Shown piece after piece: positions 12,994 through 17,164 of a stretch of DNA of 64,000 bases. Origin of the DNA: an uncultured Nitrososphaerales archaeon (lineage in GTDB: Archaea; Thermoproteota; Nitrososphaeria; Nitrososphaerales; Nitrosocaldaceae). The stretch is taken from the NCBI GenBank assembly GCA_938030895.1, contig CALHIV010000011.1:124001-188000 (forward strand). Reading direction: 5' to 3'. A program made the translations under genes and the position numbers. The notes beneath the pieces are model-generated. The model was given only the letters and a program-made list of their open reading frames with translations. It was not told where the DNA came from and made no database searches. Numbering within the stretch: position 1 is the stretch's first letter; each line of letters begins with the position of its first letter.

Positions 12994-14001
12994 ATGGTAA
13001 GTGTATGCTTATCACACAAAGAGGACCCAGATGGTATAGTATCTGCAACGCTGATCAAGTCTGTTTATTCACATGATACAGATGCAGATGCAGATGCAGA
13101 TATGAAGGTTATACTTGTAGATTACTCTGACTTCCTCCAGAGGCTTGAAGAGGCAGTGAATATGGAAGGCCTTGAGCAACTCTTCATATGTGATATGGGT
13201 TTGAGCAAGGCTAATCAAGAGGTGTTCTTCAGGCTGGTAGAGCATGCAACAAGACGGGGATCAAGGGTTACATATATCGATCACCATCATCTAGAAGAGG
13301 GGAGTAAGGATAGGTTAAGGGGTTATGGTGTTGAGTTGATACATAGTGTAGAGGAGTGTACATCCATCCTGATATACCATAACCTATTGAGTAGGAAACT
13401 AAGTAGATTCGCTCTACTTGCTGGGCTTGCTGCCATAATAGATGAGATGGATGATAGAGATGTAGCAAGTAGGATACTAGGCAGTTATGATAAGCATTTT
13501 GTTGAGTTTGAAGCAACAGCACTAGCATATGCTATATATCAGAACCAGCACAATCAGGATTTCCTCCTTAGGTTGGTTGATAAACTTGTTGAGGCGATGC
13601 CCCATGCTATAGATGGAGTTCTAGAGTCTGCCAAAGAGTATGCAGAGAAGATAATCAGTAATATAGGTATAATAGAGAATGATGCGAGGAGAGAAGGGGA
13701 TGTAGTTTATATTCAGGCTGTAAACCTTCCTGCAAGTACCGTTGCCAATATGCTATTAACAATGTATAAGGGTATCAAGGTTGCTATATCATATAAGCAG
13801 AGAGGAGATAAGATGGTTGTATCGTTGAGAGGGTCTGACCTCTGTACACTCCATCTAGGGAGAGTGGTTAATGATATAGCGAGTGAACTTGGGGGTAGTG
13901 GTGGGGGTCATGATAAGGCCTCTGGCGCAATGATACCAAAGGATAGTATAGGTATATTTATTGAGAAGATAAAGGGTTTAGTTAATGGTTCCTCTAGTTA
14001 A
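12994..14001 (+). CDS. DHH/DHHA1 phosphoesterase (RecJ/GAN-like or nanoRNase-like)
   Basis: 335 residues of the DHH superfamily. Motif I is HKEDPDG (8-14), motif II is ICDMG with Asp67, and motif III is IDHHH (95-99), so all metal ligands are present. The C-terminal DHHA1 domain contains the GGSGGGHDKASGAMIP glycine loop (about 298-313). Members act as RecJ-like 5'-3' exonucleases, nanoRNases or cyclic dinucleotide phosphodiesterases. The position next to the origin and orc1/cdc6 favours a replication-linked role such as the GINS-associated nuclease, but this is inference. An in-frame DADADADAD repeat (30-36) lies in a loop between the first two motifs and comes from a GATGCA hexanucleotide run. 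Start ATG 12994. Confidence 0.8.
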   Translation: MVSVCLSHKEDPDGIVSATLIKSVYSHDTDADADADMKVILVDYSDFLQRLEEAVNMEGLEQLFICDMGLSKANQEVFFRLVEHATRRGSRVTYIDHHHLEEGSKDRLRGYGVELIHSVEECTSILIYHNLLSRKLSRFALLAGLAAIIDEMDDRDVASRILGSYDKHFVEFEATALAYAIYQNQHNQDFLLRLVDKLVEAMPHAIDGVLESAKEYAEKIISNIGIIENDARREGDVVYIQAVNLPASTVANMLLTMYKGIKVAISYKQRGDKMVVSLRGSDLCTLHLGRVVNDIASELGGSGGGHDKASGAMIPKDSIGIFIEKIKGLVNGSSS

Positions 14002-14150
14002 GATATTAACCGTTAGATGTTATCATATCATATTCATATCTAAACTAAATACCTGAGGTCTCATCCTTCTATCACCTTATCAGTATAATTGTTAGTATAA
14101 AGATTGTTAAGATCGTTACTGTTAATTTATGAGAGATGTTAACTCATTAA

Positions 14151-14176
14151 CTTCCAGTGGAAATAGTGGTGTTAGG
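14151..14176 (+). repeat. ORB-like element 1
   Basis: Core TCCAGTGGAA at 14153-14162 followed by ATAGTGGTGTTAGG. It matches the 18-nt core of elements 2 and 3 (CAGTGGAAGTGATGGTGT) at 15 of 18 positions. The element is in plus orientation, and its core starts 41 nt before element 2. Confidence 0.75.
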
Positions 14177-14189
14177 ATCGGTATGATAT

Positions 14190-14215
14190 ATGCTCCAGTG
14201 GAAGTGATGGTGTTA
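14190..14215 (+). repeat. ORB-like element 2
   Basis: Identical over 26 nt to element 3 (starts with ATGCTCCAGTGGAAGTG). Together they give the local consensus for the origin-binding site. The two copies are 61 nt apart, close to a whole number of helical turns. Confidence 0.8.
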
Positions 14216-14250
14216 TTTGATCGTTATTAACCATATTAACACCAGTTTAG

Positions 14251-14276
14251 ATGCTCCAGTGGAAGTGATGGTGTTA
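14251..14276 (+). repeat. ORB-like element 3
   Basis: Exact copy of element 2 over 26 nt in the same orientation. Exact duplication in a non-coding region next to orc1/cdc6 is the strongest sign that the box is functional. Confidence 0.8.
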
Positions 14277-14336
14277 CTTTAAGCCTATTTTACGTATAGT
14301 TAACATGTAGTTAACATGTAGTTAAATGAGGGAGAG

Positions 14337-14354
14337 ACACCATCATTTCTTCTG
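14337..14354 (-). repeat. ORB-like element 4, inverted
   Basis: Read on the minus strand, CAGAAGAAATGATGGTGT matches the local consensus at 15 of 18 positions. It faces elements 1-3 and borders the AT-rich stretch, an arrangement used by Orc1 proteins to load on both sides of the unwinding region. Confidence 0.6.
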
Positions 14355-14476
14355 TATTCTGTATATAGAGAGTTATTAGGATGAGCTATAGATAGAATAA
14401 AAATCATAGATAAATTATCAATTAAAATTGATTTATTAGTTTAAAAATCAAATGTATACAAGTGTAAAGAGAAGTA

Positions 14477-14494
14477 CATTGGAAATGGTGGTGT
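14477..14494 (+). repeat. ORB-like element 5
   Basis: CATTGGAAATGGTGGTGT matches the local consensus at 15 of 18 positions. It lies between the AT-rich stretch and the start of orc1/cdc6, and so could also contribute to autoregulation of that gene. A GTGTAT simple repeat follows to 14530. Confidence 0.6.
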
Positions 14495-14547
14495 GTATGT
14501 GTATGTGTATGTATATACCTGTGTATGTGTAATGGGGTGTAGATAAG

Positions 14548-15738
14548 ATGGGTTATGATAATCTGATAGATGAGATATTTGATAGGGTTATAACATCAAA
14601 ACCATTGATAAAAGATAGGGATGTGCTTAGATCAGACTATATACCAGATAGACTGCTCTATAGGGATAATGAGATAAGGGCTGTTGCAGAGTCACTCTCC
14701 CCATTACTCAAGGGATCTAGAGCCTCAAACCTCTTACTCTATGGTAAGCCTGGGACTGGTAAGACAGCAGTTGCTAGATATGTATTGAAGCGTCTACAGG
14801 AGAGGGCAAGTAAGTCTAACCTGAACGTTGCTCTAGCCTACTCCAATGTAAAGAATGCAAAGAGAGAGTATACAGTACTTGTACAGCTTGGAGAGACTAT
14901 AGGTCTAAGATTTCCGTTCACAGGACTGGCATCTAGCGAGGTATTCACTCGAATAATCAACCATATAAATGAGAATGGTATAGATACAGTATTCGTTTTA
15001 GATGAGGTAGACTTTCTTGTCAAAAAGCATGGTGATGAGATACTCTACCAGATGACTAGAGCTAATGAACGTCTACAGAGAGGTTCTCTAGGGCTGGTAG
15101 GGATATCCAATGATCTTAACTTCAAAGACCTGCTAGATCCTAGAGTATTGAGTAGCCTCAGTGAGGAGGAGGTGCTCTTCTCCCCATACACCGTTGGGGA
15201 GTTGAGGCATATACTCATGGATAGAGCAAGGCTAGGCTTCCATGAAGGATGCATAAGCGAGGCTGCGATAAATCTCTGTGCTGCTATAGCAGGTGCGGAG
15301 CATGGAGATGCTAGAAGGGCTCTAGATCTTTTAAGGGTAGCAGGCGAGGTTGCTGAGAGGGAAGGTGCTGATAGAGTTGAGGAGAAGCATGTAAGGATTG
15401 CTGAGAAGAGGATAGAGCAGGATAAGGTTAGTGAGACCCTAAGGAAGTTACCATTACATGAGAAGTTAGTCATCCTTAGCGTTATGCTCTCAGATAAGGG
15501 TTCTACTGGGAGTGTGTATGATAAGTATATATCATTGGTAAAGAGGCTAGGCATACAGCCTGTAACACAGAGGAGGGTAGGGATGATAATAAGTGAGTTG
15601 GATATGCAAGGTCTGCTCTATGCTCCAGTTATAAATCAGGGTAGGTATGGGAGGACTAAGCGTATATCCCTAGCCATACAGGATTCCCTAGTTAGAGAGG
15701 TTCTATCAGAAGATCCAATGCTCTCAGTCTTATTCTAA
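14548..15738 (+). CDS. cdc6: Orc1/Cdc6 replication initiator
   Basis: An AAA+ ATPase that binds ORB elements and recruits MCM. It has 396 residues. Walker A is GKPGTGKT (66-73), and Walker B is VFVLDEVDFL (148-157). The sensor-like GISNDLNF and the arginine-containing DPRVLSSL region follow, then a lid domain with GDARRALDLLRVAGE, and a C-terminal winged helix (about 310-396) ending in the usual YGRTKRISL wing. The start at ATG 14548 lies just after the ORB array and a GTGTAT tract. It is probably autoregulated by its own binding sites. The next gene (SpoIIM-like) follows after 50 nt. Confidence 0.93.
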   Translation: MGYDNLIDEIFDRVITSKPLIKDRDVLRSDYIPDRLLYRDNEIRAVAESLSPLLKGSRASNLLLYGKPGTGKTAVARYVLKRLQERASKSNLNVALAYSNVKNAKREYTVLVQLGETIGLRFPFTGLASSEVFTRIINHINENGIDTVFVLDEVDFLVKKHGDEILYQMTRANERLQRGSLGLVGISNDLNFKDLLDPRVLSSLSEEEVLFSPYTVGELRHILMDRARLGFHEGCISEAAINLCAAIAGAEHGDARRALDLLRVAGEVAEREGADRVEEKHVRIAEKRIEQDKVSETLRKLPLHEKLVILSVMLSDKGSTGSVYDKYISLVKRLGIQPVTQRRVGMIISELDMQGLLYAPVINQGRYGRTKRISLAIQDSLVREVLSEDPMLSVLF

Positions 15739-15788: not shown

Positions 15789-16310
15789 ATGGGTTTGAAG
15801 AGGAGGCTACTACTCCTTGCAATAGCATCCTTAGCATTTATAGCATTCTTCAACCTAGGTGCGAGTAGTGAGATAGGTGAGCAGGATGCAAAGAAGATCA
15901 CAGAGCAGTTCAAGGAGATGGTAGAGAATATAGATGCCTATGGAATATTCCTCAACAACTTCAGGATAGCATTAGCTATGTTCATACCTGCTCTAGGGAT
16001 AGCTGTAGGCTTGTTCTCTGCCTACTCTACAGGTCTAGTCTTCAAGGCCCTAGTTGTAACCACACCAGAACTTGCAGGTATACCTCCATTACTAGTGCTT
16101 GCCACACCATTCGGCATAATGGAGGTTGTATCCTATGGTATAGCTATGTCTCAGAGTGGTATACTCTTACATAACATAATCAAGAAGAGAGGCTTCAAGG
16201 TAGTTATAATCCCAACACTCATACTTATAGGGATAGTATGCGTATTGCTACTTGCTGGTGCATTCATAGAGTACTATATGATAAGGACTGCTATGGAGAG
16301 GGTAAGTTAA
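15789..16310 (+). CDS. SpoIIM/DUF95-family membrane protein
   Basis: 173 residues with an N-terminal TM helix (about 4-25), an extracytoplasmic amphipathic part (EIGEQDAKKITEQFKEMVENI), and three further TM helices at about 58-80, 93-125 and 138-160. The N-terminal FLNNFRIALAMFIPALGI block and the EVVSYGIAMSQS motif resemble the stage II sporulation protein M family, widespread in archaea and of unclear role in membrane organisation. It is on the same strand as orc1/cdc6 with 50 nt between, so it could be co-transcribed. Start ATG 15789. Confidence 0.7.
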   Translation: MGLKRRLLLLAIASLAFIAFFNLGASSEIGEQDAKKITEQFKEMVENIDAYGIFLNNFRIALAMFIPALGIAVGLFSAYSTGLVFKALVVTTPELAGIPPLLVLATPFGIMEVVSYGIAMSQSGILLHNIIKKRGFKVVIIPTLILIGIVCVLLLAGAFIEYYMIRTAMERVS

Positions 16311-16417
16311 ATAGATGAGAGAGGTTAACAACTTGTATCATATGGCCTTTAAGCCCCAATAAGTTAATAGATGATGATAGCAATACAAACATTTACCCCT
16401 TCTGGGTTATACTTGTT

Positions 16418-17164
16418 ATGTTTGGAGCAAGGATACACTACAGCCCTAAACTGGAGGATCCAATAATGGTTGCTGCATTACCAGATATGGGTAATGTTGC
16501 CGGTCTATGTATATCAACCCTAGTCAAGGGATTAAGTGCTGAACTCTTTGCTGAGATATATGCATATTGGCCACCATACGTAACATACAAGGATGGCGTA
16601 ATAGAGTATAGGCAGTCAACCTATAGATTCTACACCTCAAGGATAGATAACATTGTAATATTTGGGGGAGACTTTAACCCTACAGATCCTAGGAGGCTCT
16701 ACGAGGTATGTTATGAGGTAGTCAATATGGCCCAGAGGTTATCAGTGAAGATGTTATACACTGTAGGGGCAGCGTTAAGGCCATCTGTTGGTGCAGAGCC
16801 TAGGGTTTATGGTGCAGTGAACAACAGTAGCCTACTTGATACCCTGAAGGAGCATAATCTGTTCATCCTTGAAGGCGAAGGCCAGATAACTGGGTTCAAC
16901 GGTCTAATACTGGGTATAGCAATGAAGAGAGGGCTAGATGCTATATGCATACTTGGTGAGATAGATAACCCAGAGATAGTACAGCCTAGAACAGCAAAGA
17001 GAGTACTTGAGAGACTGCTTGATATCGCAAAGATAAGGAGGTTCGATATGTCTGAACTGGATGAGGAGGAGAAGAGGAAGAGGTTCATAGAGGAGCAGTT
17101 ACGTTACATGAGTAGCATGCTCGAGAGGGATAAGGGTAGAAGGGATGTAGATATCTACTATTGA
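16418..17164 (+). CDS. PAC2-family protein (proteasome-assembly chaperone fold)
   Basis: 248 residues with the PAC2 layout. It has MVAALPDMGNVAGLCISTLVKGL at 22-44, an IVIFGGDFNP strand, a middle helix, GEGQITGFNGLILGIAM near 149-165, and a C-terminal helix bundle. The family includes the eukaryotic proteasome assembly chaperone PAC2 and archaeal proteins of unknown partner. A second, more typical member is in this window at 35487-36224 and the proteasome beta gene is at 42492, so a proteasome role is conceivable, not shown. Its stop overlaps the convergent CbiE gene by 7 nt. Start ATG 16418. Confidence 0.75.
   Translation: MFGARIHYSPKLEDPIMVAALPDMGNVAGLCISTLVKGLSAELFAEIYAYWPPYVTYKDGVIEYRQSTYRFYTSRIDNIVIFGGDFNPTDPRRLYEVCYEVVNMAQRLSVKMLYTVGAALRPSVGAEPRVYGAVNNSSLLDTLKEHNLFILEGEGQITGFNGLILGIAMKRGLDAICILGEIDNPEIVQPRTAKRVLERLLDIAKIRRFDMSELDEEEKRKRFIEEQLRYMSSMLERDKGRRDVDIYY

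Follow-up and report, generated by a model that had tools for sequence, protein, structure and literature searches.

The question raised by the gene-free stretch in front of the orc1/cdc6 gene is whether the chromosome of its host starts to replicate there. The DNA analysed, a 64-kb stretch referred to below as the window, corresponds to positions 124001–188000 of contig C11 of a 1.37-Mb genome. The host is assigned to a Nitrosocaldus species on the basis of its AmoA gene and of the closest relatives of its Orc1 protein, which are 95% to 90% identical and include records named Ca. Nitrosocaldus. In profile searches no gene of the genome other than orc1/cdc6 gave a full match to this family, and the best solved relative of the protein is the Orc1 of A. 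pernix (2v1u). The intergenic region is bounded by a DHH/DHHA1-family gene on the left and by orc1/cdc6 on the right, and an ORF scan of 14002–14547 detected no open reading frame of ≥60 aa. A replication origin with ORBs beside orc1, as proposed in a preceding sequence-only reading, proved to be the best interpretation, given that the region adjoins the sole full-length orc1, carries unique, genus-conserved boxes of the ORB consensus type, and lies at the place where the origin of N. cavascurensis has been predicted. More specifically, we consider it, with a probability of about 94%, to be the single chromosomal origin, of the oriC1 type, of a Nitrosocaldus species, at which Orc1 would bind five ORBs (Table 1).

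Table 1. Features of the proposed origin region (positions within the 64-kb window)
Feature	Position	Strand	Description
Proposed replication origin region, intergenic	14002..14547		546 bp, 69% AT
Left TTAAC/GTTAA cluster	14106..14151		Copies at 14106, 14121, 14138, 14147
ORB1	14153..14172	+	TCCAGTGGAAATAGTGGTGT; aligned in 6/6 Nitrosocaldus genomes
ORB2	14194..14213	+	TCCAGTGGAAGTGATGGTGT; 41 bp from ORB1
TTAAC pair between ORB2 and ORB3	14227..14240	+	Repeat survey, genus alignment
ORB3	14255..14274	+	TCCAGTGGAAGTGATGGTGT; 61 bp from ORB2
Three TTAA(C) elements in 11-bp steps between ORB3 and ORB4	14299..14326		Offset analysis
ORB4, inverted, diverged	14337..14356	-	TACAGAAGAAATGATGGTGT; left border of the AT-rich core
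Presumed duplex unwinding element	14357..14474		~79% AT; conserved centre TAGATAAATTATCAA
ORB5, diverged	14475..14494	+	TACATTGGAAATGGTGGTGT; right border of the AT-rich core
orc1/cdc6 initiator gene	14548..15738	+	396 aa; TIGR02928 5.9e-117 full length, Cdc6_lid, Cdc6_C

The left boundary of the origin region coincides with the end of the DHH/DHHA1 (RecJ-like) gene (12994–14001); this gene scores well short of the curated NCBIfam cut-offs, and a connection to archaeal RecJ/GAN replication factors is possible. Downstream of orc1, SpoIIM-like and PAC2 genes occupy 15789–17164, and a SpoIIM-like gene likewise adjoins orc1 at two loci of family f2 (L019 and L020), as read from the sequence. Immediately 3' of ORB5, a GT-rich microsatellite of TGTGTA units (14492–14530) was observed, which is shorter in the other Nitrosocaldus genomes.

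Searches were performed with an 18-nt box, CAGTGGAARTGATGGTGT; the ORB coordinates of Table 1 refer to a 20-nt form. The five 18-nt boxes which the sequence-only reading had noted in 546 gene-free bases upstream of orc1/cdc6 were found at 14153–14494, in ORF-free DNA, with starts of the 18-nt form at 14155, 14196 and 14257 (+), 14337 (-), and 14477 (+), and with 2, 0, 0, 2, and 2 mismatches to the query, respectively. They span 340 bp, and ORB5 is separated from the orc1 start codon by 53 bp. The two perfect boxes are indeed identical over 26 nt (ATGCTCCAGTGGAAGTGATGGTGTTA). The window contains six matches at ≤3 mismatches, as compared to 0.14 expected, and six were reached in none of 100 shuffles. 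When the search was extended to the whole genome, the five boxes of the array were the sole matches at ≤2 mismatches; the canonical ORB pattern, at ≤3 mismatches, retrieved boxes 1–3 and one stray match. Boxes 1–3 possess the exact TCCA..TGGAA dyad part, which in boxes 4 and 5 is degenerate yet conserved; the latter two, the presumed core pair, are the furthest of the five from the ORB consensus.

An AT-rich core between an inverted and a direct copy had also been noted, and it is present: the segment is 79% AT overall and 87% AT in its centre (14394–14456), it harbors the weakest 60-bp duplex of the window (starting at 14387; -58.6, as compared to a mean of -78.0 with sd 4.5), and it is conserved across Nitrosocaldus genomes. 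The arrangement given there, of three boxes to its left and one or two to its right, has to be corrected to four on the left (three direct and one inverted) and one on the right. ORB4 (-) and ORB5 (+) flank the core with their G-rich ends facing outward, with 118 bp between them. The oriC1 of the Sulfolobus-type comparison genome, which we take to be that of S. acidocaldarius, shows the same geometry, with a diverging ORB(-)/ORB(+) pair 128 bp apart and 79% AT in between. The oriC1 of Sulfolobus/Saccharolobus, which pairs with Orc1-1, is organized as ORB2-DUE-ORB3 (PMC12141716) with a DUE of about 120–130 bp, and in S. islandicus origin activity requires both boxes of the ORB pair around the core (PMC12141716). 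Because ORB4 and ORB5 match the ucm-carrying Sulfolobus oriC1 in orientation and spacing, the origin is assigned to the oriC1 type; owing to this match and to the need for both boxes in S. islandicus, the ORB4-core-ORB5 unit is likely to form the functional core by analogy, with ORB1–3 as an upstream array. The two systems differ in that the Sulfolobus core holds ucm, which is bound by UBP, whereas the TTAAC elements described below occupy positions outside the core, in the gaps between direct boxes and ahead of ORB4. The ucm motif of the Sulfolobus DUE, ATTATACAAAC (PMC12141716), was not present in 14357–14474 on direct reading; it was found in the core of the Sulfolobus comparison genome, which served as a positive control. 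In addition, the G-string of the Sulfolobus boxes reads GGGGT, that of Nitrosocaldus GGTGT.

The array was recovered from all six Nitrosocaldus genomes searched, with the order and orientation of the five boxes kept and the surrounding sequence diverged. Two perfect boxes and further weak ones occur in the neighbouring genus (G006), and related boxes in family f2 (G007, G023). Most other families of the order have canonical ORBs (TCCAGTGGAAATAAAGGGGT) upstream of orc1, the common layout consisting of two direct boxes 59–64 bp apart, an inverted box, an AT-rich stretch, and an orc1-proximal box; the spacing of the ORB2-ORB3 type is thus maintained at 59–64 bp across the order. One of the genomes compared (G091) is presumably that of N. 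maritimus. Nitrosopumilus-type origins resemble that of Nitrosocaldus in having two direct ORBs 61–62 bp apart, an inverted box, an AT-rich region and orc1, as well as TTAAC at +45, +56 and +67 from ORB3, but they differ in that their direct boxes are TGGAGTGGAAATAAAGGGGT-like with an intact G-string, and a counterpart of ORB1 at 41 bp was not seen. Five genomes of the order, small or nearly complete (G041, G048 and G055 of family f14, genus g29, and G032 and G042), contained no recognisable Orc1/Cdc6 in profile searches (TIGR02928 over cut-off, Cdc6_C). All three sampled members of g29 are among them, so that a loss of the initiator in this genus is possible, with assembly gaps as the alternative.

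The type and the location of the site are already known from the sister species N. cavascurensis, for which an origin was predicted at ORB repeats upstream of cdc6/orc1 (Abby et al. 2018; PMC5797428), the placement being based on Ori-Finder 2 and on analogy to N. maritimus (PMC5797428). That organism belongs to the same genus, its predicted origin occupies the same place as the array described here, and the closed sister genome G001 starts just upstream of the array. In N. maritimus, a single origin has been mapped (Pelve et al. 2013, cited in PMC4010727). The host studied here is a new species-level instance of this known kind of origin, with the GGTGT form of the box and the array of TTAAC elements as its variant features. 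In the passages of its text on the origin, the account of N. cavascurensis gives the location only, and a box analysis, the G-string variant, and the TTAAC array are absent from them (PMC5797428).

According to the sequence-only reading, the usual G-string is replaced by a GGTGTT-type tail. The altered end is real; a loss of the G-string, in contrast, had to be rejected, since the box and the canonical ORB are equally long and differ at three positions, GGGGT being substituted by GGTGT. Compared to the published common ORB motif, TCCA[CG]T[TG]GAAA[TC][GA]AAGGGGT (Ori-Finder 2, PMC4164010), TCCAGTGGAAGTGATGGTGT matches at 17 of 20 positions, the substitutions being A11 to G, A15 to T, and G18 to T. 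The ORB motifs of Halobacteriaceae and Thermococcaceae vary at the G-string, too. Among the sampled families of the order, GGTGT in direct boxes is limited to f1 (the Nitrosocaldus family) and the sister family f2; in the Orc1 tree these two make up a single clade (100/98). Three loci of the Nitrosopumilus-type family f9 (L052, L056, L057) combine direct ORBs carrying GGGGT with inverted and orc1-proximal boxes that end in GGTGTG. In the A. pernix Orc1-DNA complex the ISM contacts the G-track (PMC9738581). Around the ISM, the Orc1 proteins of f1 and f2 differ from the other aligned ones at residues 106 (R vs. T/S), 109 (T vs. R/K), and 129 (S vs. a hydrophobic residue); the f9 proteins, which were read separately, show ‘TGLAI’, the residue that follows TGLA being hydrophobic, and differ in sequence near 106–109. 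Of the four winged-helix arginines that contact the ORB in A. pernix, compared as a mark of an Orc1 initiator as opposed to an Orc1-2-type regulator, three (R345, R346, R369) are conserved, and R367 is replaced by Gln at a position that is variable in the order. The changes in the box and in the ISM region of Orc1 co-occur, and a link between them is suggestive only, because the co-occurrence represents a single evolutionary event.

From these features we infer the following course of initiation. Orc1 produced from the adjacent gene would bind the five ORBs, its winged-helix domain reading the TCCAGTGGAA half and the ISM of its AAA+ domain contacting the G-rich end, and this two-part contact would give each bound Orc1 a direction. 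Molecules on the diverging ORB4(-) and ORB5(+) may then steer MCM loading into the AT-rich core, where the strands would open and the origin would fire. ORB1–3, placed 41 and 61 bp apart and roughly on one helical face, might act as an upstream helper array. The TTAAC elements that lie between the boxes are probably the binding sites of a second protein, which would shape the complex or aid it.

The TTAAC repeats are concentrated at the origin. In the window, 15 were counted there as compared to 5 elsewhere (palindromes counted twice), and in the closed sister genome G001 the origin is the densest 400-bp window for TTAAC, with 16 copies versus 8 in the next; the perfect 11-bp-phased TTAA(C) triple occurs in a single copy in the host genome. 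Densities per 500 bp are 9–19 in families f1, f2, f7, and f9, as compared to shuffle means of about 1.4–2.6, with G026 (count of 6; its ORBs are further from orc1) as the lone exception, and 0–7 in the other families. The four TTAAC-dense families are exactly those bearing AmoA. Their Orc1 proteins group together as one clade (99/99), in which f7 and f9 carry a warning of long branches. Relative to the ORB3 start, TTAAC sites are found at -27, -18, +45, +56 and +67 in 6, 6, 7, 7 and 5 of the 7 f1 genomes, respectively, and at -29, -20, -8, +45, +56 and +67 in 9, 29, 25, 22, 25 and 20 of the 31 f9 genomes. The right-hand three sites are thus 11 bp apart and identically positioned in f1 and f9, the Orc1 proteins of which are about 50% identical; in f7 the sites are less regularly placed. 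The word keeps its C, often as the palindrome GTTAAC. Identity with the Sulfolobus ucm was considered and rejected: ucm lies in GCTTGGTTTAATTATACAAACTCAATATTT, which differs in sequence and in place. A literature search found no published TTAAC origin element in archaea; Pelve et al. 2013 was outside its scope, and an earlier description is possible.

Strand skew was computed on the closed sister genome G001, with third-position skews corrected for the coding-strand effect using crude ORF calls. The turn in GC skew that might have been expected at the site was not observed: the plain cumulative GC skew reaches its lowest value at 1.32 Mb and its highest at 0.29 Mb, and no extremum at orc1 occurred in the plain cumulative GC, RY, or AT skew. 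An axis through the site did emerge from the gene-corrected third positions. Corrected AT3 skew favoured an origin near 0–40 kb or 1.48 Mb, with the best z of 5.0 near orc1 (95% of the block null, 3.67) and a z of 4.7 (rank 3 of 79) at position 0; corrected KM3 (keto/amino) skew shared its diameter with AT3 and had its pole near 740 kb (z 5.4; null, 3.77). Corrected GC3 skew did not favour the orc1 site. The AT3 and KM3 skews support a strand-asymmetry axis through the locus, which alone cannot separate origin from terminus.

Could the boxes serve mainly as an operator for autoregulation of orc1, with replication starting elsewhere or without a fixed origin? The short distance of ORB5 from the start codon would suit an operator, replication without Cdc6 and an origin is possible in Thermococcus kodakarensis (as described in PMC5663688), and the plain GC skew does not turn at the locus. 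However, the spread of the boxes far exceeds that of an operator, the locus shows the complete layout of an oriC1, its AT-rich core enclosed by two boxes, a geometry shared with Sulfolobus oriC1, the rest of the genome holds no other ORB site at ≤2 mismatches to CAGTGGAARTGATGGTGT, and the corrected-skew axis runs through the site; we regard autoregulation as the main role as very improbable. Even less credible is a mobile-element remnant or a chance AT-rich array with no role in replication. The microsatellite adjoining ORB5 could be taken to point that way, but the shuffles never reached the box count, and conservation extends to the box positions within the genus and to the layout among families; on these grounds both variants were rejected.

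With regard to the TTAAC repeats, their distribution suggests a second origin element with a putative binding protein. In ammonia-oxidising archaea, this element would consist of helically phased TTAAC sites whose offsets from the ORBs are fixed, and a clade-specific protein would bind them for origin assembly or firing, the whole being a separately arisen counterpart of ucm/UBP; we offer this tentatively, at somewhat less than even odds. The repeats might instead be no protein site but an intrinsic signal for unwinding or curvature of the DNA, through flexible TpA steps in helical phase, as the 11-bp phasing and the AT-rich sequence would allow. Yet it is the word with its C, rather than general AT content, that has been kept, and the elements sit outside the core of weakest duplex; a signal of the DNA alone hence seems rather unlikely.

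The origin would thus be fixed for a deep-branching thermophilic ammonia oxidiser, with an origin layout that is kept across its order. The G-string variant and the ISM changes, if they arose together, constitute a natural experiment in the coevolution of initiator and DNA, which is open to testing. The TTAAC element, common to all sampled ammonia-oxidising families, may reveal a new origin-binding protein in very abundant archaea.
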